From a virus, in the IMG/VR virus record IMGVR_UViG_3300027861_000089, positions 1 through 36,484 of that record: a DNA stretch of 36,484 bases. One strand, 5' to 3'. Positions 1 through 36,484 of this stretch are shown piece after piece; the first letter of the stretch is position 1, and each line of letters starts with the position of its first letter. Under the pieces are notes generated by a model that saw only the letters and a list, made by a program, of their open reading frames with translations, made no database searches and was not told where the DNA came from. The position numbers were made by a program, and so were the translations under genes.

Positions 1-120
1 ATTGATTTACTAAAATATTCTGAAAAAGATTTATGTCAAAAAGTAAATCTAGGAACCTACTCAATAACAACAATTAAAAAGGCATTAGCTCAAGTAAATT
101 TGAAATTAAAAGCAAATTAA
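1..120 (+). CDS. C-terminal part of a phage protein with an RNA polymerase alpha-CTD-like domain
   Basis: The frame is open from base 1 and gives 39 residues before TAA. Seen: the segment DLLKYSEKDL, then NLG, then SITTIKKALAQVNLKL. This is the helix-hairpin-helix pattern of the bacterial RpoA C-terminal domain, in which a 'DLL..seeDL' helix is followed by an 'NlGkkSl.eIkeaLa..gLsL' hairpin and helix. In RpoA this fold binds UP-element DNA and activators. The frame joins exactly to the open frame that ends at 36484, so this is the 3' end of the gene starting at 36077. Its TAA (118-120) overlaps the TAA of the oncoming minus-strand gene. Confidence is good for the fold and low for the exact job. 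Confidence 0.72.
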   Translation: MDLLKYSEKDLCQKVNLGTYSITTIKKALAQVNLKLKAN

Positions 121-4519: not shown

Positions 4520-6823
4520 TTAATATTTAATAAATGGAACTAAGCCAAAGTTAACTGGTCGTGATTCTGAGCCGCCATCATAAGGAATTGCGCTTGTTGC
4601 ATATTTAAACCCACCGCCATCGAAATCAGGCCCTGACGTTGTATTAGCTTTGGAATAGGTTGTTCCAGTATGATTATGTGACTCAAATTCATCCTGTTGG
4701 AATGTTCCTATATAGCCATTGAAATTCTTAGCTAATATTCTATTGTCAAAATCAGGATCTAAACCGCCATCTGTAGGGCTTACAAAAGCTCTGAAAAACG
4801 CTCCGTTTGGATCAGGAAGACTATAAAAAGAACTAGCTAAAGAAATGGTCGTAAGGTCCCTAACTTCTTCGGCTGTTTCTGTACCAGCAAGATCAGCTAC
4901 TAAAATACCAGTTCTTCCCGAAGGGGCTGGGTCTGTACCTGCGCCATTAACCTTGTACCAATAATATAATCCGCTACTGATTTTATCGGTCTCAGCAAAA
5001 AATGATTCTCCTCCACTTAAGGTTGAAGCTGCTGCAAATGTTATTTTAGTTGTATGATGTCCTTCTAACGCTTCTGTAATTAAAACAGCATTATGACGCG
5101 CCGTTGTAAAGCCGCTAGCGGTTGTTAAATCTACCTGAATACCAGTTCTTCCTCCAACTGCCGGATCGGTTCCGACCCCATCTATGGTAAGCCAGACATA
5201 ATAATCATCCGTGGTGCTACTTATGAAAAAATAATCTCCTGGAGTAATACTTGATGTATCAGTCGGGACTATTGTGGCTATTTCATGTTTGGTGCTTGAT
5301 CCATCTTGAATTTTTGTTACCGTAAATCCAGATGTTTGTGCTGAAGCATCTGTAACATCTCCAGTGGCATTATTTCTACAACGAATAGTAACGCCATCAT
5401 CTTGCGTTGGAATAAAGCCTAATCCGCCCGTCCATCCTGGGTTAAGTGTTGTTACTGTAAAGCCACTATCATTAGCAGACCAGTTTGATATAGTTCCAAT
5501 GTAAGTGTTCGTTGCAACTAAAGTATCTGTGGCAGAATCACCTAGATTAAGAGGACGATAGCCATCACTACCCTGAGCATCTGTTTTAGCTCCATAACCC
5601 CAAATATTACCAACTACATTATTTAACCTACGATATTGAACAACGCCACCAGTTTCATCAATATATGAATCTGAAAAAAGACCTTCTCCATTGCATAATA
5701 ATTTACCGTATACTGACGCTTCCTTAGAATGCCACGATATTTCCCCTACTTGATCGTGATATACTGATATTTGTCGTGGGCTTGTTACTATTAATCCTAA
5801 AGCAACATCATTGTCGACTAAATCAGGCCACTCTAATGGTTTCTTATCAATCTGACCCATCTCGTAAGTTTTATAATTAAATACTAGTAATTCATCGCCT
5901 TTATTCATTTGGAAATTAACAAGATCTACTTCGCTAATACTATTAAGAGGTAATCTAATTCCTACATACAAATAATCATCATCGTTATCTCCGAGAATCT
6001 TTCCATCTACATCTGGAATAACAGTGGTAACAGTAATAAGATCCCAGTCAGTATCTAATTGTTCAATTACTAATGTTGGTACGTCCGAACTAGGAGATCC
6101 TCCTGTTCCAAAATGCTGTATAATAGCAATTTGAATAGATGAAGACGTAGAACTTTTAGCTTGAAAGCTAAGTGTAATTTCATCATTAGAGAAAGATTCA
6201 ACACCTCTTATTTTTAATAAAATATCTTTATGTGTCTCGCTTCCTGCTCCAATAGATGTACATTGATATCTAAAATGATATTTAGGATTCTCTGGAACTT
6301 CGCTTTGACCTAAAATAAATTCTGGAAAAGTAATTGTATTTGTTGCGTTTGTATTATTTCTTTTAAATACCCAGTTATCAGCAGCCACATAAACTTCATC
6401 TGTTGTATCCAAATCATCATCATTTTCATAGGTTTCTTGATAATGAAATCTAAATTGTGGATTTAACATATAATTTGTTGGATCAAATTCTGTAACCACT
6501 ACCGGGCCGCCTTCATCTGAAGATGGATAATTATCAATAGACATTACAAGAGTGTCATCTTGTTTTCTTAATTTTAAATAATAAGGTTCATCATCTGCAT
6601 AATATAATCTTCCAACTGACCCTGCACCATTCAACTCTATTGGATTGGTATATTCTGGTGGTACCGTATTAGGATAAGTTATAACATCCGTTTCATAAAT
6701 GGCTTTATGTGTAGAATGATCTGTAGCTTTCCATGATTCTAAAGTTCCATAAATCAATCTATCACCAGTAACTGGATCAAAGAAAAAATTTATGAATAAG
6801 GGTTGTAAATTATACGCTGTCAT
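4520..6823 (-). CDS. Tail fibre with collar-type tip domain
   Basis: The 767-residue protein begins MTAYNLQPLFINFFFDPVTGDRLIYGTL and has a beta-rich N-terminal half. Two copies of a repeated domain follow at about residues 529-590 and 607-665; both contain YYxW, then (V/A)GTDPAxxGRTGI. It ends with the fibre tip pattern DEFESHNHTG (about 713-720) and SESRPVNFGLVPFIKY, matching the phage tail-collar/fibre tip motif 'd....HnHtg ... etRP.N'. The histidines in such tips can bind metal along a trimer axis. The stop and start with the neighbouring genes are tightly spaced (ATGA overlap with the ejection gene upstream). Role: host recognition. Confidence 0.8.
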   Translation of the reverse strand: MTAYNLQPLFINFFFDPVTGDRLIYGTLESWKATDHSTHKAIYETDVITYPNTVPPEYTNPIELNGAGSVGRLYYADDEPYYLKLRKQDDTLVMSIDNYPSSDEGGPVVVTEFDPTNYMLNPQFRFHYQETYENDDDLDTTDEVYVAADNWVFKRNNTNATNTITFPEFILGQSEVPENPKYHFRYQCTSIGAGSETHKDILLKIRGVESFSNDEITLSFQAKSSTSSSIQIAIIQHFGTGGSPSSDVPTLVIEQLDTDWDLITVTTVIPDVDGKILGDNDDDYLYVGIRLPLNSISEVDLVNFQMNKGDELLVFNYKTYEMGQIDKKPLEWPDLVDNDVALGLIVTSPRQISVYHDQVGEISWHSKEASVYGKLLCNGEGLFSDSYIDETGGVVQYRRLNNVVGNIWGYGAKTDAQGSDGYRPLNLGDSATDTLVATNTYIGTISNWSANDSGFTVTTLNPGWTGGLGFIPTQDDGVTIRCRNNATGDVTDASAQTSGFTVTKIQDGSSTKHEIATIVPTDTSSITPGDYFFISSTTDDYYVWLTIDGVGTDPAVGGRTGIQVDLTTASGFTTARHNAVLITEALEGHHTTKITFAAASTLSGGESFFAETDKISSGLYYWYKVNGAGTDPAPSGRTGILVADLAGTETAEEVRDLTTISLASSFYSLPDPNGAFFRAFVSPTDGGLDPDFDNRILAKNFNGYIGTFQQDEFESHNHTGTTYSKANTTSGPDFDGGGFKYATSAIPYDGGSESRPVNFGLVPFIKY

Positions 6824-8667
6824 TTATTTTCTCCTAATGTTCCTAATGCTTCTGACATCAATAACGATCTAGCTAAAGGACTTAATGTTTCTTTTCCAGC
6901 TCCTTTTGCTAATAAATTTAATCCTGCTCTTTCGGCTGTTGGCGCGGCTAATAAAGCCAATCCTGCTGGTATATGTCCCGATGCCATTCCTGCTAGACCA
7001 AAATATTTAGGAGCATTCATAGCTGCTTTTACTAGTGCTCCTTTAACTTTTGATGGCTCCTTAAATAAAGAAGGATTTTTCTTATATACCTGAGCCATTT
7101 TATCTAATGCTTGTTTATCCTTTTCATTGAATAAAGTATTTTTTTGATTTCCTCCTAACTTATTATATTGTTTTAATATTCCAGCAGGATCTCCTTCTTG
7201 ATTTCTTAAATAATGATAAGCAACAAGATTTTTAGATTCTTCGTCAGGCATCATGTGCATTAAATTATTTAAGAATTCAAATTGATCTTTTTCATTTCCA
7301 GGTTTTAGATATTCTTCGGTCATTCCAGATAGAGGACTACCTTTTGCATATCTTTTATAGAAAGGTGAAGTATTTACTTTCCCTCCTGGCGTTTGCTTGA
7401 AAGGCAAGAGTTCTTTTATATATTTTTTGTCTGCGTCTTCCCACAATTTAGATATAGATTCTTTTTTGTTTTTTAGGGATTTGATCTCTTCTCTATTTGT
7501 TTTTTTATTTTCAGATGTAAGTTTTTTTATGTTTTCATCAATGGAGTCTGTGGTTGATTTTCTGACCGAATCCCTTAAGCCTTCTTTTGCTTCTAGAACC
7601 AAGTGTCTTTTAGGATCATTTATCTGAAAACGTCCAAATTCATCATTTAGATGTTGCTTACCAAGATCAGCTTCCTCAAATGTTGCTATATTAGGTTGTA
7701 ATAATCTTTCTTCTAAATATTCTTTAACATCTGGTGGTAATGTTTCTTTGCCAAATCTTGCATATTTAGAAATTTCAGCTCCCTTATATTCATTCATCTT
7801 ATCTAAATAAGGTTTCATATTGATTTTAACGCCAAATTCCCTGCTTATATCTTTAGGCTTATTATAAGCAGCTCTAATACTGTCTTTGGGGTGTATCCAG
7901 CTACCTTTACTTAAAATATCACCTTGTTTATTACTGCCCTTCAATTCCTCAAAATGTTGTGAAGCTCTATCAAAAATATCTTGAGAGCTTGTTTCTTTTG
8001 AGCTTGAACCTCTTAATCTCTCTAACATATTATCTAGTGCCTCTTTTGCTTGAGGATATATAATCTCTGCTCTCTGTGATGCTGCTTTTCCTGCTTTAGC
8101 TAACCCTCTTCCAGCAACACCAAGACCTGCGCCTAAAGCTCCGCCTAAAATAGCACCTTTTCCTGGTGTTTCTGGTGCTTGTGCTCCTCCATAAATAGCC
8201 CCTGGAACAGCTTCGCCTACTAACTGCGCTCCCTTTCCTAATAATGGGGCTAAGACTTTTGCTGTCTTGGCTGGAGCTGCCGCCATTTCAGCAAGCCCAT
8301 AACCAACGGCTCCACCGCCTATTCTTCCTAATGTTTTTGCTAAAGGATGTTCTGCTCCTACTTGCAACGGAGCCACCTTAGGGGCTTTTATATATTGTTT
8401 TCCTAATAATCCTCTTGCTACATTTATTGGTAAAGTTCCAGCACCTAGAAGTAAATTAGCTAATTCATGTCCTCCTGCCGCTGCTCCGACTAAAGGAGCT
8501 TCCATTGGATTAATTGCCAACTTAGCTAATTGTCCTATACGAGAAGGTTTTGCTGTTGGTGCTTGCTCTTCTGTAGAAGGTTCTGCTAATAAATGTATTG
8601 GCCCCTCTTTTTTAGCTTTTCCTGAAAATTTTTTTAAATCTTCTTTTGTAATTAATCCTTCAGCCAT
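6820..8667 (-). CDS. Large ejection (internal virion) protein, P22 gp16-like by position
   Basis: The protein has 615 residues. Seen: an Ala/Gly-rich, membrane-active-looking N-terminal third (for example GAILGGALGAGLGVAGRGLA), a long charged, helical middle (DSIDENIKKLTSENKK and neighbours), and a second hydrophobic Ala/Gly-rich C-terminal segment (GLAGMASGHIPAGLALLAAP). P22-type phages carry three ejection proteins that leave the capsid ahead of DNA and form a conduit across the envelope; the largest has such hydrophobic segments. It is the third of three genes in the expected place between the gp10-like gene and the fibres, and its ATG overlaps the previous stop as TAATG. Sequence identity to gp16 itself was not established. 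Confidence 0.68.
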   Translation of the reverse strand: MAEGLITKEDLKKFSGKAKKEGPIHLLAEPSTEEQAPTAKPSRIGQLAKLAINPMEAPLVGAAAGGHELANLLLGAGTLPINVARGLLGKQYIKAPKVAPLQVGAEHPLAKTLGRIGGGAVGYGLAEMAAAPAKTAKVLAPLLGKGAQLVGEAVPGAIYGGAQAPETPGKGAILGGALGAGLGVAGRGLAKAGKAASQRAEIIYPQAKEALDNMLERLRGSSSKETSSQDIFDRASQHFEELKGSNKQGDILSKGSWIHPKDSIRAAYNKPKDISREFGVKINMKPYLDKMNEYKGAEISKYARFGKETLPPDVKEYLEERLLQPNIATFEEADLGKQHLNDEFGRFQINDPKRHLVLEAKEGLRDSVRKSTTDSIDENIKKLTSENKKTNREEIKSLKNKKESISKLWEDADKKYIKELLPFKQTPGGKVNTSPFYKRYAKGSPLSGMTEEYLKPGNEKDQFEFLNNLMHMMPDEESKNLVAYHYLRNQEGDPAGILKQYNKLGGNQKNTLFNEKDKQALDKMAQVYKKNPSLFKEPSKVKGALVKAAMNAPKYFGLAGMASGHIPAGLALLAAPTAERAGLNLLAKGAGKETLSPLARSLLMSEALGTLGENK

Positions 8668-12522: not shown

Positions 12523-13230
12523 TTAACCTGCATAAATATTATAACTACCATAACCGTTTGCACTTTTTAATTTGAACGTTCGCACATCTAAATCAATGTC
12601 GTTAGCAGCCAAACATTCTGTTTTATATTGCGTAAAGAAACTTTCTGATTCCGGTGACCAGCTTGAAGAGGGGTAAAAAGTATGCATAACTTTGGCTAAA
12701 TAATATTGTAAATATCCATAATAATACGCCGGAACATTTTCAATATTTGCATCAAGCTCTACATTAGGTAATACAAATTTTCCTTTAAGAGTTACTTCAT
12801 AAGCCTTATCAGGAATAATAAAAAAATGTATTTCTGAAAGTTCATCTAAATTATTTTGTATAAAGAGTTTAGATGGTTTTCCGTTTGTATTTAAATTTCT
12901 CGAAATACCATAAAATGCATTGTCGCTAAGAATAGATAGTGGATACTGAATATTGCCATCAATTAAAACAGCTTTTTCTAGTATTATTAATCTTGAATCA
13001 CCAAAATCCCCTCCGTCACCAATTGTGTATACTTGTTTACCAATTGTTAAAGGAAATGAAAGAGTTTTACTAAAAGAAATTTGTTGAGAATTTCCAGAGA
13101 ATAAATCAATAATAATGTTTAACTGTCCTAATGCTTGGGTTTTTTGATATCCAGATAAAGGCCTATCTTCCGAAGCAATATTTATTATTTGATATGCTGA
13201 TTCTATTAATCTATCTACTTGCAAATCCAT
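12523..13230 (-). CDS. Head-tail adaptor, P22 gp4-like by position
   Basis: The 235-residue protein begins with a helical segment (VDRLIESAYQIINIAS), contains SGYQKTQALGQLNIIIDLF, and ends in YYYGYLQYYLAKVMHTFYP with a hydrophilic C-terminus. Helical N- and C-terminal parts around a beta insertion are seen in head-completion adaptors of this group. Its place between coat and the gp10-like gene is that of P22 gp4, which binds under the portal. P22 gp4 is shorter (166 residues) and has muramidase activity in some reports; no catalytic motif is visible here. SD AGAGGTG precedes the ATG. Confidence 0.68.
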   Translation of the reverse strand: MDLQVDRLIESAYQIINIASEDRPLSGYQKTQALGQLNIIIDLFSGNSQQISFSKTLSFPLTIGKQVYTIGDGGDFGDSRLIILEKAVLIDGNIQYPLSILSDNAFYGISRNLNTNGKPSKLFIQNNLDELSEIHFFIIPDKAYEVTLKGKFVLPNVELDANIENVPAYYYGYLQYYLAKVMHTFYPSSSWSPESESFFTQYKTECLAANDIDLDVRTFKLKSANGYGSYNIYAG

Positions 13231-13297: not shown

Positions 13298-14542
13298 TTA
13301 CCCGAGTTGACCAACAATACGGTCGCCATTAATTAGGATTCCGTAAAGAACATCAAATCTCGTTATAATTCTATCGTTAATAACATCATATTCTTCGATC
13401 AGCCTTATAGAGATTCCAGTTTGATCATCTGTTTTACGCCCTGAGGTCGAAACAGATGAAGGAATTCTTAAAGGAGGAGCAGCAAATACAATGCCATCCT
13501 TGCAGAAGGCATAACTTAGCTTATAAGGATCAGTTCCAGCACTTGCTATAAATATAGGTGCGTCATCTGGAATTGGAGCAGTGATATTTCTGAAAGGATC
13601 AGTAACATCAGAAATAACAGGTGTAGATACTGTAATTGTAACATCGGTTCCAGTTGAATCAGCATCAGCCGTAACAACAGCTTGATATGCTCTTCCTACA
13701 GAATCATGAGAACGTGGATTTAAAGTCTCAACACCTCCAAAATAAATCTTATCACCAGCTCTAAACACATTCTCAGTGTCAGCCTCTACACCTTGAACAA
13801 CAATTGTAACTCCGTCAGTTACTTCACCATTAACTGTGCCAGCAGCTTGATAGCCATCAGCAACAGCAGTTCCATCGCCAGTACCAGCAATATGGGTTTG
13901 CGCAGAAACAGAGGTGAAATGCTCAAATTGTAGTAAAGCTCCTAGATATGCATTTTTATTGATTTGTACATTCGTGTCCTTAACAAAATTATTTTGTAAG
14001 TTAGAATTAGAAATAAACTCTGCATAACTGTCTTCATCCCATCCCATATAACGATTATATGCTGGGATACCCAATTTATTACAATATGCTCTAGTTCTAC
14101 TTAGATTTGCAAATGTTGTTGGAGCAACGCCCGCAGTTCCTAGATGGAAATAAGTTTTCTTAAATAATTCTTGAGCAACAGATAACTCAATTGCATTAGC
14201 AAGATCTACAACAGCAGGTTTAATGAATCTTTCATCAAATTTATGCCGTGTATATAAAGTTAAGTCTTGAGTCGTAAAGTCTTGAACAACCTTTTTTCTA
14301 TAATCTAAAGTTAAGTCAACTGAAGGTTCGTTAATAGCATCTATCGATGATATTACAGCTCCATCAGAAACATTAAATCGATTATGTTTGCGAATTGTGA
14401 TTGTATCCCCTTTGTCCCAATGCCCAGTTTCAAAATCTTTTTGATACTGAGTATCAGCAGAAGCTACAAATCCAAGTTGATTGACAAGCATAGCAAGTGC
14501 GCTTTCCGAAACATCTTGCATGGTAGTATAAGTATTAGTCAT
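13298..14542 (-). CDS. Major coat protein, P22 gp5 family
   Basis: The 414 residues compare with 430 for P22 gp5. Seen: MTNTYTTMQDVSESALAMLVNQLGF, then GDTITIRKHNRFNVSDGA and the LTLDYRKKVVQDFTTQDLTLY segment, and the C-terminal DVINDRIITRFDVLYGILI. These follow the P22-type HK97-fold coat order with an inserted beta-rich domain (about 215-320, rich in V, T, D and G) that corresponds in place to the P22 I-domain. Forms the icosahedral shell around the scaffold product. SD GAGGAA lies upstream of the ATG. It is directly downstream of the scaffold gene, as expected. Confidence 0.9.
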   Translation of the reverse strand: MTNTYTTMQDVSESALAMLVNQLGFVASADTQYQKDFETGHWDKGDTITIRKHNRFNVSDGAVISSIDAINEPSVDLTLDYRKKVVQDFTTQDLTLYTRHKFDERFIKPAVVDLANAIELSVAQELFKKTYFHLGTAGVAPTTFANLSRTRAYCNKLGIPAYNRYMGWDEDSYAEFISNSNLQNNFVKDTNVQINKNAYLGALLQFEHFTSVSAQTHIAGTGDGTAVADGYQAAGTVNGEVTDGVTIVVQGVEADTENVFRAGDKIYFGGVETLNPRSHDSVGRAYQAVVTADADSTGTDVTITVSTPVISDVTDPFRNITAPIPDDAPIFIASAGTDPYKLSYAFCKDGIVFAAPPLRIPSSVSTSGRKTDDQTGISIRLIEEYDVINDRIITRFDVLYGILINGDRIVGQLG

Positions 14543-14604: not shown

Positions 14605-15450
14605 CTATTTATACATAGCTCTTCTTTTTTCGTAAGTCATTGCGGAAGGATCATTAATTTGACCCGAACCGTTTAATGACTTAGGTTGATCTGGAACATT
14701 AGTTAAAACACTTTTCTTAGCTGTTTCATTAGCTAAAATATGCTTTCTAATTAATTCCATTTTCATTTGATCTGGATTCAAACGAGATAATTTATAGATC
14801 TCTAAAGGATCTTTTTTAGTTAACTCATACAAGAACTTCATACCGCTCTTTTCATCTAAATTTGCTGCTGCAACAACCATTTCCTGAGTAACTGGGTTAT
14901 TCTGCATAACCTTCTCAAAATCATCGATTGAAACACAACAATCGTAGAATTGATCTTCTACGTTTTTAGGAGCACCAGAAACAGAAGGTTGTTCCGATGC
15001 TGTCTGAAGATTGTCTTGATTAGCCTTATGTGAAGCACCATCTTGTTGAAGCTGAATTAATGCCGCCTCAACGGCAGCAGAATACTGCTCACGACTCATG
15101 TCGTTTGGTATTGCCCCTAACACTGAATCAAAAACGTGTCCTTCAGGCACATTATTCATTCCATTAGCAGAATATTGCGAAGAATATTGATTCATTTGAC
15201 TGCTTTGATCTGCAATCTTTTTGTTCAACTCATCAATAGTCTTTTGCGATCTTCTTTGCGTAACTGAACGAACTTTTGCGCTTCTAGCATCTAAATCGTT
15301 TTCTGTATACTTTTTCTCTAGCTCCTCCTTCACTTCAGGAGAAACTACAGTTTCTTCTTTACTCGCTTCTGAACTAACATCGTCTTTCGACTCAGGAAGT
15401 TCGACCGGATTTATGTCCTCATTATTGTTAACTGTATTCTCATCTGTCAT
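14605..15450 (-). CDS. Scaffolding protein, P22 gp8-like
   Basis: The 281 residues compare with 303 for P22 gp8. Seen: an acidic, disordered N-terminus (NNNEDINPVELPESKDDVSS), a predicted helical core, and a basic C-terminus (YEKRRAMYK). P22 scaffold binds coat through a short basic C-terminal helix-turn-helix, so the basic end fits. It is the first gene after the control region and just upstream of coat, so the promoter at 15554-15582 should drive it first. The role is to direct coat assembly into procapsids and then exit. Family assignment is by position, length and charge pattern. Confidence 0.78.
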   Translation of the reverse strand: MTDENTVNNNEDINPVELPESKDDVSSEASKEETVVSPEVKEELEKKYTENDLDARSAKVRSVTQRRSQKTIDELNKKIADQSSQMNQYSSQYSANGMNNVPEGHVFDSVLGAIPNDMSREQYSAAVEAALIQLQQDGASHKANQDNLQTASEQPSVSGAPKNVEDQFYDCCVSIDDFEKVMQNNPVTQEMVVAAANLDEKSGMKFLYELTKKDPLEIYKLSRLNPDQMKMELIRKHILANETAKKSVLTNVPDQPKSLNGSGQINDPSAMTYEKRRAMYK

Positions 15451-15553
15451 AGATCAATTACCTAAGTTCATATCAACTTGATTTACAAATTGCCGTGAAA
15501 GCTGATCACGTTTCCGCTACGAATAAAAAGATGTCGCATTCATCATGTTTGGT

Positions 15554-15582
15554 ATCATATATGATTATTTAGAGGATGTCAA
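15554..15582 (-). promoter_or_regulatory. Sigma70-type late (head gene) promoter with palindromic -10
   Basis: On the minus strand, TTGACA (15582-15577), a 17-bp spacer and TATGAT (15559-15554) form a near-consensus promoter about 100 nt upstream of the scaffold ATG. The -10 is embedded in the perfect palindrome ATCATATATGAT (15554-15565), a possible operator. Tandem 9-mer boxes abut the -35 on its upstream side. Confidence 0.72.
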
Positions 15583-15585
15583 GAG

Positions 15586-15612
15586 TTATTCACAGGGTTA
15601 TCCACAGTCTGT
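15586..15612. promoter_or_regulatory. Two DnaA-box-like 9-mers plus an inverted repeat next to the late promoter
   Basis: TTATTCACA (15586-15594) and TTATCCACA (15598-15606) are same-strand 9-mers 12 bp apart; the second equals the strict DnaA box consensus. The second runs into the palindrome CCACAG-T-CTGTGG (15602-15614). They end 4 bp upstream of the minus-strand -35, where an activator or alpha-CTD would bind. They could be DnaA sites (origin or DnaA-controlled promoter) or phage activator sites. Confidence 0.6.
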
Positions 15613-15678
15613 GGTTATATGGCTCCATATATGAGATTGCTGGAATAAGATTAAATGCGCGAGGTGACTATTTTCTTG

Positions 15679-15718
15679 AAGTTTGGCATTGGCACGAAGG
15701 GGGGTTAATGCCAAACTT
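15679..15718. other. Long hairpin with TTGGCATT stem, copy 1
   Basis: Perfect 12-bp arms AAGTTTGGCATT and AATGCCAAACTT flank a 16-nt G-rich loop containing GGGGGG. A shorter relative with the same stem core lies at 15857-15887. No protein-coding sense is apparent here. Confidence 0.65.
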
Positions 15719-15731
15719 GTATTGGAAAAGA

Positions 15732-15767
15732 ATAACAGGGGGCAACGGGAGGGAGTTTCCCTGTTAT
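15732..15767. other. Hairpin in the control region, possible terminator
   Basis: 9-bp arms ATAACAGGG and CCCTGTTAT enclose an 18-nt purine-rich loop. On the plus strand the right arm is followed by AATTTATT, a weak U-containing tail. Confidence 0.5.
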
Positions 15768-15810
15768 AATTTATTGAAAAATAAAGATATTATAATATGA
15801 CGGGGAGAAG

Positions 15811-15828
15811 AAGAGGGAATTCCCTCTT
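15811..15828. other. Perfect 18-bp palindrome
   Basis: AAGAGGGAATTCCCTCTT is self-complementary over all 18 bases. As RNA it gives a 7-bp stem with an AATT loop followed by TT on the plus strand, so a short terminator is possible. As DNA it could be a dimeric protein site. Confidence 0.5.
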
Positions 15829-15856
15829 TTGATGCTCCGTTGTTCAAATGAAAAAG

Positions 15857-15887
15857 TTGGCATTAGGGGGCTTAGTGACAATGCCAA
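15857..15887. other. Hairpin with TTGGCATT stem, copy 2
   Basis: Arms TTGGCATT and AATGCCAA enclose a 15-nt loop containing GGGGG. Stem core and G-rich loop repeat those of the hairpin at 15679-15718, so the two are probably related elements. Confidence 0.55.
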
Positions 15888-15890
15888 GGC

Positions 15891-15927
15891 TGACATGAAA
15901 TGTCCGAGATGTGGACATGAAATGTCC
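15891..15927. promoter_or_regulatory. Two tandem dyad-symmetric operator-like sites
   Basis: GACATGAAATGTCC occurs twice, exactly, with 22 bp between equivalent bases (about two helical turns). Each copy is a dyad (the second extends to GGACAT-GAA-ATGTCC). Identity, symmetry and helical phasing suggest paired binding of a dimeric regulator. Confidence 0.62.
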
Positions 15928-16031
15928 AAAAGATAAAACATATTGATTATTAAGGGAAAAACACTGATTTTATTTTCCATCTCTGATAGGCTCTGATAAG
16001 AAATATTAAGATAAAAGGAGGCTGTTTGGAC

Positions 16032-16081
16032 AAAAAGGGAAGATATGAACCCTAAAAAAAGTGCTCATATCTTCCTTTTTT
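16032..16081. terminator. Bidirectional rho-independent terminator
   Basis: Left arm AAAAAGGGAAGATATGA and right arm TCATATCTTCCTTTTTT pair over 16 bp with one bulged G. The A-run on one flank and the T-run on the other give a U-tail in either direction. Transcripts coming leftward from the terminase/portal genes should end here, which separates them from the head promoter at 15554-15582. Confidence 0.75.
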
Positions 16082-16100
16082 AATAAATTGTCTACGGAAT

Positions 16101-16130
16101 GCGTATGAAAGCGTATGAATGCGTATGAAA
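16101..16130. repeat. Three 10-bp tandem repeats (iteron-like)
   Basis: GCGTATGAAA, GCGTATGAAT and GCGTATGAAA follow without gaps. They are trailed by two degenerate units with GCGTA at 16133 and 16142. A 10-bp period puts each copy on the same DNA face, as in origin iterons or clustered operators. Nothing else in 16131-16236 was recognised. Confidence 0.65.
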
Positions 16131-16236
16131 ACGCGTACTTTCGCGTAAATGATTTAGGAGTTTATTTTACATTTTTGGGAGAATTTTTCAGCTTTTTGTC
16201 AAAAAAAGACTATTTCTGGGTGTGGATTTTCCATTT

Positions 16237-16527
16237 TTAACTTATTTGTCTGCTAATTTTGTATAATCTTTCTCTCTGTACTTCTTCGCTTATTGGCTCA
16301 AATCCTGCTTCCTTAAGAAGTCGCTGTGTTTCCTGGCTTCTCTTTTTGTTTGCAGCTCTTCTCTTTCTTTCTTTGTTTATTCTTTCTGCTTCTCTTCTTG
16401 CTTCTTTTGACTCTTCTTCTTCGATTTCTCGCTGCCTTGCTCTTTCTTTCTGTTTTTGTAGTTCTTCTTTTATTGTAAAATTAGGTGGATTGGCGGCTTT
16501 TGGGTCAGTATATGTTTCTCTTATCAT
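16237..16527 (-). CDS. Charged helical hypothetical protein
   Basis: The 96-residue protein is almost entirely charged from residue 18 on: KEELQKQKERARQREIEEEE, then EARREAERINKERKRRAANKK. It probably forms a single long helix or coiled coil. The C-terminus (LLKEAGFEPISEEVQRERLY) looks more globular. No family is recognised. It is the last gene before the non-coding control region and follows the sigma-like gene in the same direction. A nucleic-acid- or scaffold-binding helix is possible, but nothing decides it. Confidence 0.6.
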   Translation of the reverse strand: MIRETYTDPKAANPPNFTIKEELQKQKERARQREIEEEESKEARREAERINKERKRRAANKKRSQETQRLLKEAGFEPISEEVQRERLYKISRQIS

Positions 16528-16554
16528 CGTTCATCTCTTATATCTGTCTTTTTT

Positions 16555-16851
16555 CTATTTGGCGAAAAACAACAAGTCTTTTTCTAAGACCTTTATTATA
16601 ATCCGCAATCCCCTATGTTCTATTTGGCGAATACGTTCAGGCGTAAGACAAAGTTCGGTTCCCACCTCTGCCAATGTATAAACTTTATCCAACCCTATTC
16701 CAAATCTCATTCGTAAAACTTCTACTTGTTGCAAAGTTATTTTAGATCGCAACTCTTTATCCTCCAAAAATTCTTTTATAACAAACTTGCTTATGTCAAA
16801 TAAACGATGTGTTTTTGGACCGTTTTCTCTTATTATGGCTTTTTTAGGCAT
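16555..16851 (-). CDS. Stand-alone sigma70 region 4 protein
   Basis: The ATG at 16851 has GGGAGG upstream with 6-nt spacing, so it is preferred over an in-frame GTG at 16857. The 98-residue product matches sigma70 region 4: EVLRMRFGIGLDKVYTLAEV (about 44-63), then GTELCLTPERIRQIEHRGLR (64-83). In primary sigma factors the same stretch reads 'vlrlRFGl....tLeEvG..l.vTrERiRQiE.kaLrkl'. Regions 1-3 are absent. Known: region 4.2 contacts the -35 element and the RNAP beta-flap. The protein could redirect, stabilise or appropriate host RNAP at phage promoters. It is encoded next to the late control region. Confidence 0.87.
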   Translation of the reverse strand: MPKKAIIRENGPKTHRLFDISKFVIKEFLEDKELRSKITLQQVEVLRMRFGIGLDKVYTLAEVGTELCLTPERIRQIEHRGLRIIIKVLEKDLLFFAK

Positions 16852-17074
16852 ACTCACCCTCCCTGTTAATAAATTTATTAAGCGTGATCTCGTCTCTTAT
16901 TCTTCTAGCCTCTTCAATTCTTATTTTGTACAAAGCATAGACAGCTTTGACTTTTCTTAAGTTATCCCTGGCTAATAAAAGATCATGTTTTTGTTTTCTA
17001 TCTAATTCACCGCGATATTTCTTCACAAACTCATCAAGTAAAACAGCTTCTCTTTCTAATCTCTCATCTATCAT
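16844..17074 (-). CDS. Small helical protein between portal and the sigma-like gene
   Basis: The 76-residue, strongly charged helical protein includes LEREAVLLDEFVKKYRGELD and YALYKIRIEEARRIRDEI. Its ATG overlaps the portal stop as ATGA, and its own end overlaps the following gene, so translation is coupled. No family recognised. A role in head assembly is possible from position only. Confidence 0.65.
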   Translation of the reverse strand: MIDERLEREAVLLDEFVKKYRGELDRKQKHDLLLARDNLRKVKAVYALYKIRIEEARRIRDEITLNKFINREGEYA

Positions 17075-19125
17075 GCTTCGCCCCTTCCTGCTACGCTAAT
17101 ATATTCTCTAGCTAGATCTGTATTAGCCTTGGCCATTTCAGCATCAACTTTCCTATGTCCAAGATCAATCTTAGAATCTTCAATTTCTTTCTTACCTAAT
17201 TCCTTCATTATATCAGTAGCTGCGCCAATATGCGAAGAATGAGTCTCCATTTGTGTCTTTGCTGCTTCAGATTGATTCTTCATAGCCTCAGTTTGCTTTT
17301 TCTGAGTATCAGCATTAATGTTTTGTACTTGAGCCATCATTAATGGATTAGGCTTTTGTTGAGGGGCTGGTTTTTTCTCTTCTTTAGCAATTATTACAGG
17401 AATTAAATCTTTTGCTCGCTGAACTAAAGTATCTGCACTCTTTATGTCAACAAGCTCAGCTAATATGTCAGGACTTATCTTGCCAAGCTCTGGATTAACT
17501 CTTATTGCGTTTACCATGTTATTAAATTGCTGCTGCTTATCCATCTCGAAACTAGCTCCGGCTTTCACTTCAACAGTGTATTTTGTGGCTTTTATCATTG
17601 TTTCCTTCTTTCTTTCGTCATTAATAGGCTGACTCAAAGTTTTACCGTCATGCGTCGAAATGCTCACAGTTCTTCTTCCGTCATATACCTCGGGAAGTGC
17701 TCCAATTGAGCACCTTAATCCAGATTCGATAGCTTTCAAGGCATTATCAAAAAATATCTTTATATTTAAATTTGATGAGGCTAACCTATTATTTACAGCC
17801 ACACCGCTACTTTCGTTGCTTGGTGCTCCTGTCGCCACTTCAGATCTGCCGGGAATATTCTGTATATCAAAATATGATCTTTCTACTTCTTGGATTAAAA
17901 CAGGATCAATTTGTTGCGGCTGTTGGCGTTGCGGAATAAATCCAGATTGTACCTCATTAAAAACCAAAGCTCCTTGCTGACGATGTGCGTTAGTCCATTG
18001 ATCATTTTTTCCCTTTCCAGAAGGAATATTCCCAGTGGCTACAAGCCATGGAGCTATTCTTGATGTCTGTAATCTATAAACCAATTCAGATCTTGATCTG
18101 TTGTATGATTTTTGTGCATCTTTCATGAATCTGATGGCTGAATAAGTGTACTCTCTTCCTTTGATCCACTTTGTTATGCCTGCTTGAAAAATTATAGGTA
18201 ATTGTTCGCCTGGGAAAATTGATTCTTCTATAATATAATTTTGAGTAATTCTATAATGTTTTATTCTGTATGTTGTTTTCATCTCTGATTTAACTATTGA
18301 AAGAGGTTCTGGGTTTATAGCATTATATTTTGATAATTCCTGTTCGACTTCTTCCTCTGGTTTTTTTATGAACGATCCGTTGCTTAATAAAACCACATTA
18401 ACAGTATAATATTCCTTCATATAATAATCACAAATTGCAATTGATTCTTTATCTTGCCATGGAAAAGGTTGGTCTGTAACTTCAAAATCATCTGCCTCTG
18501 CTACTTTAAATTTGGGATATTTTTCTTTAAATTCCGCTTTGGAGATTTGCGTAACTACCCCGCAATAATCCCCGTCAGATTTGTCGACCTCACGAGCCGA
18601 ACTGTCCCAATAACATAGTGTAGGGTTTTCAACTGATTTATACCTAATACAGTAATTAAAACTTAAATCAGATTCAGGCTCAACAACAATTCTGAATGCC
18701 CCGTAACCCCCTGTCCATGCACAACTTGCCGCTGTTGAATAGACAAGATTAGTCTCAGATCTCAAAGCTATTCTTCGTAAAAGAGACGTAACTATATCAA
18801 CTGTCTCTTGACTATCTTGATGTGATAAATCATATATTTCACCATCTGTGGATGATCTGACTTTGGGCTGTGGAATGTTTTGCTCAAATTGAGCCGCCAT
18901 ACTATTTAAATATTTAGGAATCATATTAAAAGTAAATCTAGGGCGGCCATTGTCTTTGTAATCGTTTATTTCAGCTTTATCCCACTGCCCGTTTTCAAGA
19001 TAAGAAAATTCTGTGTCTTGTCTGTATGTTTCAACATTATGCGAGTAATAGCTGTACCAATTATCAATATTGGATTTGATTTTATCTAATAACTTCTTAT
19101 CTTGCTTTGGTATTTTAGTTCTCAT
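17071..19125 (-). CDS. Portal protein, P22 gp1 family
   Basis: The 684 residues compare with 725 for P22 gp1. Seen: N-terminal helices followed by an early segment (RPRFTFNMIPKYLNSMAAQF), then NPTLCYWDSSAREVDKSDGD and KAEFKEKYPKF, which parallel the P22 portal segment 'viWDSnSk..DKSDa.... ...F..kY'. The C-terminal 120 residues are Gln/Lys/Ala-rich and helical (MAQVQNINADTQKKQTEAMK), like the P22 portal barrel that projects into the head. A dodecamer at one vertex carries DNA in and out. The gene follows TerL by 8 nt, as usual. Confidence 0.9.
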   Translation of the reverse strand: MRTKIPKQDKKLLDKIKSNIDNWYSYYSHNVETYRQDTEFSYLENGQWDKAEINDYKDNGRPRFTFNMIPKYLNSMAAQFEQNIPQPKVRSSTDGEIYDLSHQDSQETVDIVTSLLRRIALRSETNLVYSTAASCAWTGGYGAFRIVVEPESDLSFNYCIRYKSVENPTLCYWDSSAREVDKSDGDYCGVVTQISKAEFKEKYPKFKVAEADDFEVTDQPFPWQDKESIAICDYYMKEYYTVNVVLLSNGSFIKKPEEEVEQELSKYNAINPEPLSIVKSEMKTTYRIKHYRITQNYIIEESIFPGEQLPIIFQAGITKWIKGREYTYSAIRFMKDAQKSYNRSRSELVYRLQTSRIAPWLVATGNIPSGKGKNDQWTNAHRQQGALVFNEVQSGFIPQRQQPQQIDPVLIQEVERSYFDIQNIPGRSEVATGAPSNESSGVAVNNRLASSNLNIKIFFDNALKAIESGLRCSIGALPEVYDGRRTVSISTHDGKTLSQPINDERKKETMIKATKYTVEVKAGASFEMDKQQQFNNMVNAIRVNPELGKISPDILAELVDIKSADTLVQRAKDLIPVIIAKEEKKPAPQQKPNPLMMAQVQNINADTQKKQTEAMKNQSEAAKTQMETHSSHIGAATDIMKELGKKEIEDSKIDLGHRKVDAEMAKANTDLAREYISVAGRGEA

Positions 19126-19133
19126 CTTCTTTC

Positions 19134-20684
19134 CTAATATTTTGAAACGGAACTATATTTAGAAATATCAAACTCACGTTCTAACATTTTCTTGTTATAA
19201 TGTCCGTCTAAGGCCCCATATTGCAGACAATCTACAATATCACTAAATGGATGAGTCTTATTAGGAACATCTCTGTATCTTTCTTCGCCAATAACTCTCA
19301 TCCTCTTGTAGCAATAATGTCCACTAAGTGCTTTTCTAAGCTGCGGACATTCTTTTCTAGAGATAACAATAGCAGGCTCACCTTTGATTAAAGTATTAAG
19401 ATAATACTTAACAGCCTCTAGTCTAGGTAATAACACATTGGTTAATGCCCTATCAGTCGGCAATCCCTCTTCTTTGAGAATTTCCATTGCACTCTCTGCT
19501 ACTTCAGATATATTGCTTCCAGCGTCTCCAGCTGGATCACCTTTAGAGTCAAAAGTATATCCCTCAAAGTTAGCATTTATGTATGGAATAACAATACTTC
19601 TTGCAAATTCACGTATTCCCATCCTCTCAGTAGTAAATTCTTTAATACAACGTAATTGTCCGTCATCTCTAAATTGCATCACTAAACAGGCCGGAGTATA
19701 CCCAAAATCAAAACGAATGTAAATTGGTTGATTTTCTAACACTTGTACTTCTTCTACACTATGAACATCATCATTGTATTCATCAAAAACATGCTTGCCT
19801 AGTACAACAATTCCCCACTCTCCGCGACAATATACTTTTATGATCTCTTCTCTAAACTTATTCTTTCTAGCATAATCAAAGTAATAATCTTTCTTAAGGT
19901 TCTTTATATTGTCAGCTTCTGGATTATCTATCCAATTACTGTTTTTATCTTTTATTAATCCGGGTGGTTGTTTGAACAAGGAAGTGCCTAGTATCTTGTT
20001 TATCTCAAAATACTTGTACAACCAATGATCAGTATCGGGTGGGTTAGTATCGCCTAAGATTCCACCCCAATATTCATTTTCAATTTGCCATTTTGCAGGA
20101 AATCTCCCTACTCTTCCAGTCATGTGACTAAATATCCCCTCTGGGATATGCTGAATTTCATTAAAATAACACCAAGTAAGCTCTAATGACTCAAGAGCAT
20201 CTCGCTGATCTTCTCTGTCTAACCCCATGAACAGCAATTCTATTTCAACAACACCATCTTTATCAGCAAAACGATATTTGTAAGTCAAGATTGGCTTCTT
20301 ACGTTTTTCTATAAGCGGTAATCTACCAAACCATTGAAGCCATGTAGTTAATGTTGTGGTTTCTATTTTTCCTGCTGTGTTTCTGACTATTAGCCCTCTA
20401 GATTTTCTTATCCCATCATTGCATTTAGGCATTGTAACAGCCCTATAAAGAGCCTCGTGACAGCACATAACTGACTTGCCAGATCCGAACGGACCCATAA
20501 TGACTTTAACCTCATCATTGCACTGATGAAAAACTAATCCAGTCTTGCTTGGCTCATATTCTTTAGCGCGAGTTGTGACGTTTGATACGAAATCATCGTT
20601 TAATGAGAAATGTATGACTTCATCAGTCATATAATGTTGCTCTGCTCTGTCAAGCCTCTTTAGTAGTTGTGTGTTTTTTAACAT
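19134..20684 (-). CDS. Terminase large subunit
   Basis: The 516-residue packaging motor has its ATPase motifs in order: Walker A GPFGSGKS (64-71), Walker B LELTWCYFNE with E176, and a coupling motif GDTNPP (211-216). The RNase H-like nuclease domain follows: RFDFGYTP with D326, FDSKGDPAGD around 378-386, and HPFSDIVDCLQYG near the C-terminus. Known: TerL cuts concatemers and pumps DNA through the portal. The ATG at 20684 lies inside the end of the preceding gene with AAGGA immediately before it, so a start at 20630 (MTDEVIHF) cannot be excluded. The TerS candidate is not adjacent (25613-26071). Confidence 0.93.
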   Translation of the reverse strand: MLKNTQLLKRLDRAEQHYMTDEVIHFSLNDDFVSNVTTRAKEYEPSKTGLVFHQCNDEVKVIMGPFGSGKSVMCCHEALYRAVTMPKCNDGIRKSRGLIVRNTAGKIETTTLTTWLQWFGRLPLIEKRKKPILTYKYRFADKDGVVEIELLFMGLDREDQRDALESLELTWCYFNEIQHIPEGIFSHMTGRVGRFPAKWQIENEYWGGILGDTNPPDTDHWLYKYFEINKILGTSLFKQPPGLIKDKNSNWIDNPEADNIKNLKKDYYFDYARKNKFREEIIKVYCRGEWGIVVLGKHVFDEYNDDVHSVEEVQVLENQPIYIRFDFGYTPACLVMQFRDDGQLRCIKEFTTERMGIREFARSIVIPYINANFEGYTFDSKGDPAGDAGSNISEVAESAMEILKEEGLPTDRALTNVLLPRLEAVKYYLNTLIKGEPAIVISRKECPQLRKALSGHYCYKRMRVIGEERYRDVPNKTHPFSDIVDCLQYGALDGHYNKKMLEREFDISKYSSVSKY

Positions 20685-22546: not shown

Positions 22547-23056
22547 TTATTCCTGCTCCTTTTTTTCTAAGACTGAGATTGATTTTTTAAAATTAGCTCC
22601 GTGATCGAGTAATAGTTGTGTTATTTGTAATAACTCCTTTCTTTCCTTTATTTCACTATACACTACTCTATTGATACAACGATCTAAGAAAGTTTGATGT
22701 GGTTTCTCATACCAGCCGTGTGCAGATGCGCCATTTTCCAATAAAAACTTAACTGCTTCTACATCATAATTATTTATAGCATTTACGAGTGGTGCGCACT
22801 CATTACTAATCGGATTATTTATTAAGGCTCCTTTTGAAAGTAAATACTTCGCAAGAAATAAGTTTCTGTCTTTAATAGCTATAGACATACAAGATTCATA
22901 TAGTTGCCAATAAGATTTTGGAGGAACAACAACATTAATGTTTGCTCCGTTTTCAAGAAGAAGATCTATTAGTAGCTTATAATTGTTACTCGTCGCTAGA
23001 ATCAATCCATAGTCTAATTCCTGTTGCCTTTTTTCTTCATCTGTCATTTCTGTCAT
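22547..23056 (-). CDS. Ankyrin-repeat protein
   Basis: The 169-residue protein is counted from the ATG at 23056 (GAGGAG 7 nt upstream); an 11-residue extension falls in the previous gene. Four ankyrin-type units are visible: YGLILATSNNYKLLIDLLLE plus NGANIN (15-41), CMSIAIKDRNLFLAKYLLSK plus GALINN (56-81), LVNAINNYDVEAVKFLLENG plus ASAHG (90-114), and a divergent one ending LLQITQLLLDHGANF (142-156). The signature '...A...g....v..LL..GA..n' recurs. Such proteins bind other proteins. In phages of host-associated bacteria ('ankyphages') they have been linked to eukaryotic host modulation. The target here is unknown. Confidence 0.87.
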   Translation of the reverse strand: MTEMTDEEKRQQELDYGLILATSNNYKLLIDLLLENGANINVVVPPKSYWQLYESCMSIAIKDRNLFLAKYLLSKGALINNPISNECAPLVNAINNYDVEAVKFLLENGASAHGWYEKPHQTFLDRCINRVVYSEIKERKELLQITQLLLDHGANFKKSISVLEKKEQE

Positions 23057-23057
23057 A

Positions 23058-23375
23058 TCATTTCTCCTCATCCTTGCAAAAAGGAACAATTAATTCTTTA
23101 TGAATTTTATACATAAGTTTTCTCCTGTTTTCAGCGTCTAGAGAGTTGAACAATTGAAAAGCTTCGTACAAATCCGGCCATGCTTCTATCGCTTTCTCTA
23201 AATGTCGCTCAGTATCTGCATAAGACATACTAAATAACGCAAACAACCAACAATCAAAATATTCGCCCGCACAGCCGGCACTTACATAATGTTGTGCTAA
23301 ACAAAGTCTCTTAAGCCCTATCTTTACTTTCATATCAATCTTCTTGTAATCAAATTGTAATTTCTTAGCAGCCAT
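23058..23375 (-). CDS. YAAYxxW-family small protein (divergent member)
   Basis: The 105-residue protein has two parts. The first is a helical N-terminal half with IGLKRLCLAQHYV. The second is the family C-terminal block KAIEAWPDLYEAFQLFNSLD, then RKLMYKIHKEL. Compare A(I/V)xxxPxLYAAYxxW....LLxxIxxxL in its relatives at 23596, 24819 and 28002. Here the second Trp is replaced by Phe, so it is the most divergent full-length copy. Strong GGAGGAG SD. The family has no known function; see findings. Confidence 0.68.
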   Translation of the reverse strand: MAAKKLQFDYKKIDMKVKIGLKRLCLAQHYVSAGCAGEYFDCWLFALFSMSYADTERHLEKAIEAWPDLYEAFQLFNSLDAENRRKLMYKIHKELIVPFCKDEEK

Positions 23376-33418: not shown

Positions 33419-33909
33419 AACTATACGAAATAGCACAAAAATATACACAGGTTTTTGACTTAATTACCAGTTTGGAAGATCTTCCGCCTGAAGTAATTGA
33501 AGACACACTCGAATCATGTTCGGAAGAGTTGGAAGAAAAATCTTTAAATATAGCGGCAATAATTAAAAACATTAATTATGATGTTGAAGCAATGAGAGAT
33601 TACGAAAAGAAAATGAATCAAAAAAGAAAAACATTAGAAAACCGAGTAACGTTTCTAAAAGATTACTTAAAAGAACACATGAACATTTGTAAAGTTGCTA
33701 AATTTAGCAACCAAGAATTATCGATATCTATTAGAAAATCCCCTGTTAGTGTTATAATAGACGATATAGAAAAAGTTCCTGACAAATTTAAAGAGATAGC
33801 TTTTACTTTCAGCATTGATAAAGCAGGAATAAAAAAAGCATTTAAAGACGGGGATAAAATAGACGGAATTCATTTAGAAGAATTTAATACAACTTTAGTT
33901 ATAAAATAG
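33415..33909 (+). CDS. Siphovirus Gp157-family protein
   Basis: The 164 residues fit the family. Seen: MKLYEIAQKYTQVFDLI at the start, ESCSEELEEKSLNIAAIIKN in the middle, a charged coiled coil (MRDYEKKMNQKRKTLENRVT) with FLKDYLKEHM, and a beta-rich end (SISIRKSPVSVIIDDIEKVP). This is the Gp157 order: helical N-terminus, 'k..ni...ik....ei.a...e..rl..r......k...lk.yl...m', then 'i....pp.v.i.d...vP..f'. Function unknown; it regularly occurs with recombination genes and has been tied to phage resistance or replication. Coupled to the ATPase gene by a 4-nt overlap. Confidence 0.85.
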   Translation: MKLYEIAQKYTQVFDLITSLEDLPPEVIEDTLESCSEELEEKSLNIAAIIKNINYDVEAMRDYEKKMNQKRKTLENRVTFLKDYLKEHMNICKVAKFSNQELSISIRKSPVSVIIDDIEKVPDKFKEIAFTFSIDKAGIKKAFKDGDKIDGIHLEEFNTTLVIK

Positions 33910-34502
33910 TGAAAAATAAAATGGGAAAAATATCAGCGGAACAGTTAATAGAAAAATATAGGTCTGGGGAGCGAGACTTTAGATGTCTCAATCTTTATGG
34001 TCTTACCATGAAAGAAGAAAGTCCATACCTTTATCTAAAAGGGGCTAATCTAGAAGGAGCCAACCTATGTAAAGCTAATCTAGAAGGAGCCAATCTAGAA
34101 GGAGCTAACCTGGAAAGAGCCAACCTAGAAGGAGCTAACCTGGAAAGAGCCAACCTAGAAAGAGCAAATCTATGTAAAGCCAATCTAGAAGGAGCCAATC
34201 TAGAAGGAGCCAATCTATGTATGGCTGATCTTTTTGGTGCTGATTTGGAAAGAGCCAATCTATTTTGTGCTGATTTGGAAAGAGCTAGGTTTTATGGTGC
34301 CAATCTAGAAAGAGCTAACCTGGAAAGAGCCGATTTAGAAAAGACCGATTTAGAAAAGGCTAATCTATGCGGAGCTAATTTAGAAGAAGCTAATCTTTTT
34401 TGTGCCGATCTATGCGGGGCTACTTTACAAGGAACGAATTTATACGGAGCAGACTTAGAAGGAGCTATAATTTTGAAAAAATTTAAACTTACTAAAATAT
34501 AG
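33909..34502 (+). CDS. Pentapeptide-repeat protein
   Basis: The protein has about 197 residues. After a non-repeat N-terminus ([20 protein letters not shown]), roughly 28 pentapeptide units A(N/D)Lxx run from about 44 to 187 ([20 protein letters not shown] and onward), forming a right-handed quadrilateral beta-helix. Some members (MfpA, Qnr) mimic DNA and bind gyrase; others have no known role. The DNA repeats are nearly identical 15-mers, indicating recent expansion. GTG at 33909 overlaps the Gp157 stop (TAGTG); ATG 33921 is an alternative. Insertion between Gp157 and the SSB-like gene is unusual. Confidence 0.9.
34037..34340 (+). repeat. 15-bp coding tandem repeats in the pentapeptide gene
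   Basis: Units such as CTAGAAGGAGCCAAT and CTGGAAAGAGCCAAC recur in tandem with only a few base changes. This level of DNA identity exceeds what protein selection needs and suggests slippage or recombination-driven copy-number change. Confidence 0.8.
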
Positions 34503-36076: not shown

Positions 36077-36484
36077 ATGAATGAACATTGTGAAAATTGT
36101 AAATGGTGCACGTGGGATGATTATCTTAGTTCAGAGTATGTTGATCAAATACATAAGGGAAATGCTGTACAATACCCATTCAAGCAAAGATGCTCTTGCA
36201 GAGTTTCAGATCCAAAACCTTACGTTTATGATCTAGTAATGAATTCCGATTGTAAGCAAGACGACAAAATAAAAGGAACAGAATTTACTTATGACAACTC
36301 TTTTATGAAAATCATAAGAAATTATCCGTTAATTAGCCCACATGATTTATGTTGTGGAAAATTTGAACAGAGAGAAAAAACGGAATCTGAGGAAAAGGAA
36401 GAATTGCTAAATAAATCTTTCAGACATTTAAAAACATTAAATCGGCCATATATGCGAGTAGGAAGTCAGCTTGAAGATCATGGA
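36077..36484 (+). CDS. Cys-rich N-terminal part of the alpha-CTD fusion protein (gene crosses the contig end)
   Basis: ATG at 36077 with AAAGGAGAAG upstream. The frame runs 136 codons, exactly to the last base, and continues at base 1 for 39 more (175 residues in all). Seen: CENCKWCTWDDY, then QRCSCRVSDPK, then DLCCGKFEQRE, a probable metal-binding module that shares its CxxCKW ... C.xF frame with the small proteins at 26068 and 26336. A charged helix and LNRPYMRVGSQLEDHG follow, leading into the alpha-CTD-like part. Compared with RpoA, about four residues seem missing at the joint, so a few bases may be lost between the contig ends. Confidence 0.7.
   Translation, partial: MNEHCENCKWCTWDDYLSSEYVDQIHKGNAVQYPFKQRCSCRVSDPKPYVYDLVMNSDCKQDDKIKGTEFTYDNSFMKIIRNYPLISPHDLCCGKFEQREKTESEEKEELLNKSFRHLKTLNRPYMRVGSQLEDHG

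Follow-up and report, generated by a model that had tools for sequence, protein, structure and literature searches.

What would a phage do with region 4 of a sigma70 factor separated from the rest of the factor? The question is raised by a virus contig of 36,484 bases, hereafter called the window, in which a small gene located between the portal and scaffold genes encodes a region 4 domain (sigma4). A preliminary description of this DNA, made from the sequence, had suggested that sigma4 might act together with an alpha-CTD-like protein of the same phage as a two-part 'RNAP mimic' controlling late genes. We consider here the identity of the domain, its DNA-reading residues, its transcriptional context, the occurrence of both modules in related phages, and finally the roles that sigma4 might have.

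Identity of the sigma4 protein

The sigma4 gene lies on the minus strand at 16555-16851 and encodes 98 amino acids from an ATG start, an alternative in-frame GTG at 16857 giving a protein of 100 amino acids. It has a ribosome-binding-site-like sequence, GGGAGG, and its coding potential and codon-position GC are like those of the other genes of the phage. The open reading frame (ORF) that overlaps it on the plus strand has a negative coding score, and the other frames of sigma4 are also unlike phage genes.

The sigma4 domain occupies residues 36 to 85 (16597-16746, minus strand). The Pfam family Sigma70_r4 (PF04545) matches residues 41 to 83 with 36.8 bits (E=2.7e-9), well above its cut-off of 24.1, and a search of the record itself returned a single Sigma70_r4 domain (37.4 bits). 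All the best PDB sequence matches are region 4 of RpoD: residues 36 to 85 align to RpoD 549-598, and 25 of these 50 residues are identical in the E. coli protein. An AlphaFold model, computed with 19 aligned related domains as input, has a mean pLDDT of 80.7, with values of 92-96 over residues 41-80. Foldseek superposed it on region 4 of Thermus sigmaA (1ku3) at 0.9 A over 52 residues, with a target TM of 0.81, so that the predicted fold is that of region 4.

Pfam gave no match to sigma regions 1, 2 or 3 in this protein, including the region 2 that would mark a complete sigma70-family factor, and the NCBIfam sigma models gave C-terminal-end matches only, far below cut-off. The late regulator families Q, ArpU and RinA did not match sigma4 in Pfam, PHROGs or NCBIfam. 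The N-terminal 35 residues have no Pfam match, and no dimerisation or additional DNA-binding domain was recognised with Pfam. At the other end, an unrelated C-terminal helix stands in place of the tail that follows residue 598 in RpoD, a difference that could alter flap binding. Our searches found no close homologue of sigma4. With its above-threshold Pfam score, its RpoD matches in the PDB and the superposition on 1ku3, the ORF is confirmed as a genuine free sigma70 region 4 devoid of regions 1-3, as first proposed.

Loss of Arg584 in P22-like sigma4 proteins

The helix-turn-helix of sigma4 had been described as preserved. This is correct for most residues of the recognition helix, but not for Arg584, a -35 base-reading residue of RpoD that is Pro71 in sigma4. 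Residues R562, T583, E585, R586, R588, Q589 and R596 of RpoD are all kept, and there is a conservative K593R change; the RpoD-like -35 set (Arg584, Glu585, Arg588, Gln589) is nevertheless incomplete, R584 being Pro. The same position is Pro in the sigma4 proteins of L114/L117 and Val in that of G098, all from P22-like phages, and weaker P22-like sigma4 matches are likewise without Arg584 (Lys in L261, Pro in L245). Arg584 is thus replaced in every P22-like sigma4 that we found. Among all 99 sigma4 domains collected, 91 keep it, many of these being near-identical RpoD copies.

As Arg is missing at this position across the P22-like set, it is unlikely that these proteins read a TTGACA -35 element in the manner of sigma70. 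The set leads to a testable prediction, namely that -35 use should be altered.

Genomic and transcriptional context

The phage is P22-like, and its terminase, P22-type portal, scaffold and coat genes run leftward on the minus strand. The gene for the terminase large subunit (19134-20684; phrog_2, E=3e-32) is followed by the portal gene (17071-19125; PF16510, E=3.8e-106), and then by a gene of 76 amino acids (16844-17074, minus strand; codon score 0.20) that has no Pfam or PHROG match. The start of this small ORF overlaps the portal stop (ATGA), and its end overlaps the start of sigma4. After sigma4 and a gap of 27 nt comes the last gene of the portal-sigma4 transcript (16237-16527, minus strand), which encodes a charged, coiled-coil-like product of 96 amino acids (codon score 0.30, no Pfam or PHROG family). 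An inverted repeat (I2) at 16032-16081, which separates the sigma4 transcript from the scaffold promoter, has the features of a bidirectional intrinsic terminator, with hairpins of -23.1 and -22.1 kcal/mol and z = -6.5 on each strand. The genes for the head scaffolding protein (14605-15450; phrog_8865, E=1.3e-13) and the major head protein (13298-14542; phrog_283, E=2.4e-53) follow on the same strand.

Because the portal, 76-amino-acid and sigma4 ORFs overlap and the hairpin stands downstream, the locus is most simply read as one in which sigma4 would be a coupled part of the terminase-portal transcript, the scaffold and coat genes being expressed from their own promoter. The preliminary description had placed sigma4 beside the late control region. 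It does lie between portal and scaffold, but the 96-amino-acid gene, the hairpin and about 0.5 kb separate it from the promoter at 15582-15554. Two further statements, that no Q antiterminator and no phage RNAP were recognised, agree with our scans: the record has no match to Phage_antitermQ (PF06530), and no phage RNAP was detected among the proteins compared with Pfam and PHROG. Neither a sigma2-like protein (gp55) nor a sliding clamp was matched among the proteins scanned, which cover the small ORFs in part.

The 787-bp region downstream contains many palindromes and short repeats. In the intergenic region, three overlapping direct repeats of the GAATGCGTATGAAAGCG type, with 10 bp spacing, are found at 16097-16133. 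Elsewhere in the window, 22547-23089 and 33909-34502 encode an ankyrin-repeat protein and a pentapeptide-repeat-like protein, respectively.

The scaffold promoter and its DnaA boxes

The promoter of the scaffold gene (15554-15582, minus strand) is of the sigma70 type, TTGACA-17-TATGAT. It matches 11 of the 12 consensus positions and stands 132 nt upstream of the gene. Promoters of the form TTGAC(A/C)-16/17-TANNNT are present 114-153 nt upstream of scaffold in L097, L214, L215, L217 and L220, five relatives in which neither sigma4 nor alpha-CTD has a match above the Pfam cut-off. In comparison with shuffled sequences, the window promoter is rare (p=0.013) and those of the individual relatives less so (0.08-0.6), so that the argument relies on their common position. 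Since relatives devoid of sigma4 have the same type of promoter, we rejected a role for sigma4 in driving this promoter.

Two strict DnaA boxes (TTATTCACA, TTATCCACA; 15586-15606, plus strand) adjoin the -35 element of this promoter. At the same place, L097 has six DnaA boxes with an exact spacing of 11 bp (12943-13006), before TTGACA-17-TATTCT. A survey of 2.66 Mb of P22-like DNA found strict DnaA boxes in clusters only in the window and in the L097 lineage, and just 1 of 300 Markov-simulated genomes contained two same-strand boxes within 15 bp. Such an array could serve as an origin of replication or place a late promoter under the control of DnaA, and it may tell more than sigma4 about late control in these phages. 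Placed at the promoter of the coat operon, it provides a direct route to ask whether late transcription is coupled to replication.

A cargo site between portal and scaffold

Scans with single sequences (portal, terminase, alpha-CTD-like and fusion proteins) brought no new relatives, whereas alignment-based scans were successful. With the terminase alignment, the closest relatives were L214, L215, L216 and L217, at 67-68% terminase identity; sigma4 and alpha-CTD are absent, above cut-off, from the stored records of all four, L216 being a fragment of 7.7 kb. Against genome contigs, the same alignment detected relatives at 32-39% across many phyla. Weak PF04545 matches in G077 and G078, below cut-off and with an internal stop codon, were left uncounted.

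In 100 P22-like loci having both portal and coat genes, the median distance between the two is 1,066 bp, which leaves space for the scaffold gene only. The corresponding distance in the window is 2,529 bp. Long portal-scaffold gaps contain an XRE regulator and a Cys-rich gene in L097, a serine recombinase in L214 and L215, a tyrosine recombinase in L217, and a protein of 183 amino acids combining an HTH-like part with sigma4 in L114/L117; in others, genes that look like HNH, methyltransferase and RelE/RelB-like genes are apparent from inspection of the sequence alone. As the long gaps hold differing genes, we consider the portal-scaffold gap to be a cargo site, the variable cargo corresponding to 15451-17070 in the window and to the gaps of L097, L114, L117, L214, L215, L217, L251, L262, L272 and L287. 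To judge from these gene arrangements, two or more distant lineages have acquired a sigma4 gene at this site.

Phage contigs commonly carry free sigma4 genes. Of 80 sigma4 matches that were inspected, about half are host-type RpoD, many of them on end-cut contigs, and these were set aside. In the P22-like record L126, an ECF-sigma-like and a sigma4-like ORF (5765-6373 and 6822-7151) are located upstream of a putative small terminase gene.

Association of sigma4 with alpha-CTD

The alpha-CTD-like protein of the window is interrupted by the ends of the record. Its Cys-rich N-terminal part, the first 136 codons, runs off the end at 36077-36484 (plus strand), and its C-terminal part, which includes the helix-hairpin-helix (NLGTYSITTIKKAL), is at 1-117 (plus strand). 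When the two are joined, they form in frame an ORF of 175 amino acids, which is complete only in this configuration. Given this ORF, and given that the genes on either side of the junction lie close together within the contig of the relative G077, the record probably represents a circular or circularly permuted molecule. To judge from an alignment, the joined protein lacks some four residues at the junction, which assembly may have removed. The claimed alpha-CTD-like protein therefore exists as a joined ORF, but its match to PF03118 (18 bits in the record, 15.5 bits joined) falls below the curated cut-off of 23.8, which is passed by the relatives G115, G125 and G098. The domain lacks most of the residues that contact UP DNA in E. 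coli alpha.

Do the two modules go together? In our surveys, alpha-CTD scored above cut-off in none of 50 portal-based and in 3 of 50 terminase-based records, and sigma4 in 3 of the 50 portal-based and 2 of the 50 terminase-based records; only G098 had both. In this P22-like phage (45% terminase identity), a sigma4 protein of 193 amino acids (L307, 598-1179) and an alpha-CTD of 147 amino acids (L308, 23200-23643) are encoded by separate genes. Its sigma4 gene ends a replication-side operon and its alpha-CTD gene lies upstream of the terminase gene, an arrangement more or less opposite to that of the window. In L007 (4071-4886) and L008 (7605-8564), one protein contains an XRE-type HTH, sigma4 and alpha-CTD, all with strong Pfam matches. 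Among near-complete records of the clade, co-occurrence of sigma4 and alpha-CTD has p=0.0065 when the window is counted and p=0.067 when it is left out, the second being the honest figure because the window was chosen for having both. We regard the pairing as suggestive.

The HTH-sigma4-alphaCTD fusions suggest that phages combine promoter-reading modules of RNAP. A broader proposal would be that some P22-like phages use a modified sigma4 together with an alpha-CTD, free or fused, to rebuild in trans the promoter recognition of host RNAP. We think this rather unlikely. If it were true, trans-acting sigma4/alpha-CTD would constitute a class of phage takeover that differs from antitermination, from anti-sigma action and from the replacement of sigma. 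The open-access literature that we searched contained no paper on free phage sigma4 proteins or on fusions of sigma4 with alpha-CTD.

Possible roles of sigma4

Several elements can be seen directly: the identity of the domain, its predicted fold, the lack of other sigma regions, its location, the cargo site and the loss of Arg584. With the fold intact, most recognition and activator-contact positions kept and a single -35 contact changed, the most economical reading is that sigma4 docks on the flap. We propose, with a probability of about 0.5, that it is an accessory cargo protein which binds the beta-flap of host RNAP and weakens or redirects -35-dependent initiation. Sigma4 would be co-transcribed with the packaging genes, as the overlapping ORFs and the downstream terminator suggest. 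It would then occupy the beta-flap in the place of host sigma region 4, with which it would compete, and initiation at -35-dependent promoters would be weakened or redirected while the phage genes are expressed. Flap binding, if free sigma4 proteins are capable of it, would make them a simple means of retuning host promoters.

Alternatively, sigma4 could work solely as a DNA-binding regulator, repressing or activating phage or host operators via its helix-turn-helix and not via the RNAP flap. The conservation of most recognition-helix residues is consistent with such a function, as are the extra HTH-like N-terminal part of related P22-like versions, the XRE regulator that L097 has at the same site, and the abundance of palindromes and short repeats in the 787-bp downstream region. 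However, region 4 in isolation is a weak binder of -35 DNA, and sigma4 has no recognised dimerisation or second DNA-binding domain. We consider this explanation somewhat unlikely.

The late switch of the preliminary description, in which sigma4 and the alpha-CTD-like protein together turn on the late genes from the promoter at 15582-15554, is improbable. It is true that this phage has both modules, that they are fused in L007 and L008 and occur as separate genes in the P22-like G098, and that the promoter looks real. But this promoter is a near-consensus sigma70 promoter that recurs where neither module passes the Pfam cut-off. In addition, sigma4 sits in a cargo site, within the very transcript to be switched on and with a terminator-like hairpin before the promoter. 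Its Arg584 is lost, the alpha-CTD-like domain is below cut-off and deprived of most UP-DNA contact residues, and the co-occurrence obtained when the window is left out (p=0.067) is only suggestive.

A fourth scenario, to which we give little credit, is that of a decoy: sigma4 would titrate factors that target region 4, either host anti-sigma factors such as Rsd, or sigma4 and flap binders of competing phages, and would thereby contribute to superinfection exclusion or counter-defence. Its location in a cargo site beside other accessory genes fits this scenario, as does a fold that is intact, yet changed at the -35-reading residue; moreover, binding to sigma4 and displacement of sigma are known activities of phage proteins (AsiA, Xp10 P7). 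Finally, it is very improbable that sigma4 is a functionless piece of a host sigma gene that was captured: it has no close homologue, no counterpart above cut-off in the nearest relatives and an N-terminal part of 35 residues without Pfam match, but its codon use is normal, it has the GGGAGG sequence and an overlap with the preceding gene, and free sigma4 is found at the same site in the distant L114/L117 and commonly in phage contigs.

Comparison with known systems

Of the known systems, T4 gp33 is a small phage protein that binds the beta-flap, the site of sigma4, and acts by way of gp55 and the gp45 clamp without reading DNA sequence (PMC2988020). The likeness to the sigma4 of the window lies in the flap position, which for the latter is our inference only; in contrast to gp33, the window protein carries the sigma4 helix-turn-helix, and we recognised no partner of the sigma2 type.

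With region 4 of RpoD/SigA, sigma4 shares its fold, half of its domain residues (25 of 50 with E. coli RpoD 549-598) and most of the recognition helix. It differs by having no regions 1-3, by the Pro in place of Arg584, by another C-terminal helix and by a new N-terminal part of 35 residues.

The free sigma4 proteins of about 250 amino acids found in L016-L032 are likewise phage proteins without regions 1-3. They are among the best BLAST matches of the window domain, L017 being 65% identical to it over 48 amino acids. In these proteins, conservation extends to an N-terminal region with a PYGT motif and to a domain at the C-terminal end. Unlike the window protein, they thus carry conserved extensions at both ends and keep Arg584, and the genes around L030, which we inspected, are replication-side genes.

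The sigma4 proteins of L114/L117 and G098 resemble that of the window in being without Arg584, and the first two also occupy the same portal-scaffold place. They are longer (183-193 amino acids) owing to the extra N-terminal HTH-like part, and the gene of G098 ends a replication-side operon, whereas that of the window would belong to a late operon. The L007 and L008 fusions, for their part, contain the same two RNAP modules that the window phage has as separate genes, here united in a single polypeptide with strong Pfam domains, and they come from different phages (records of 18 and 200 kb).
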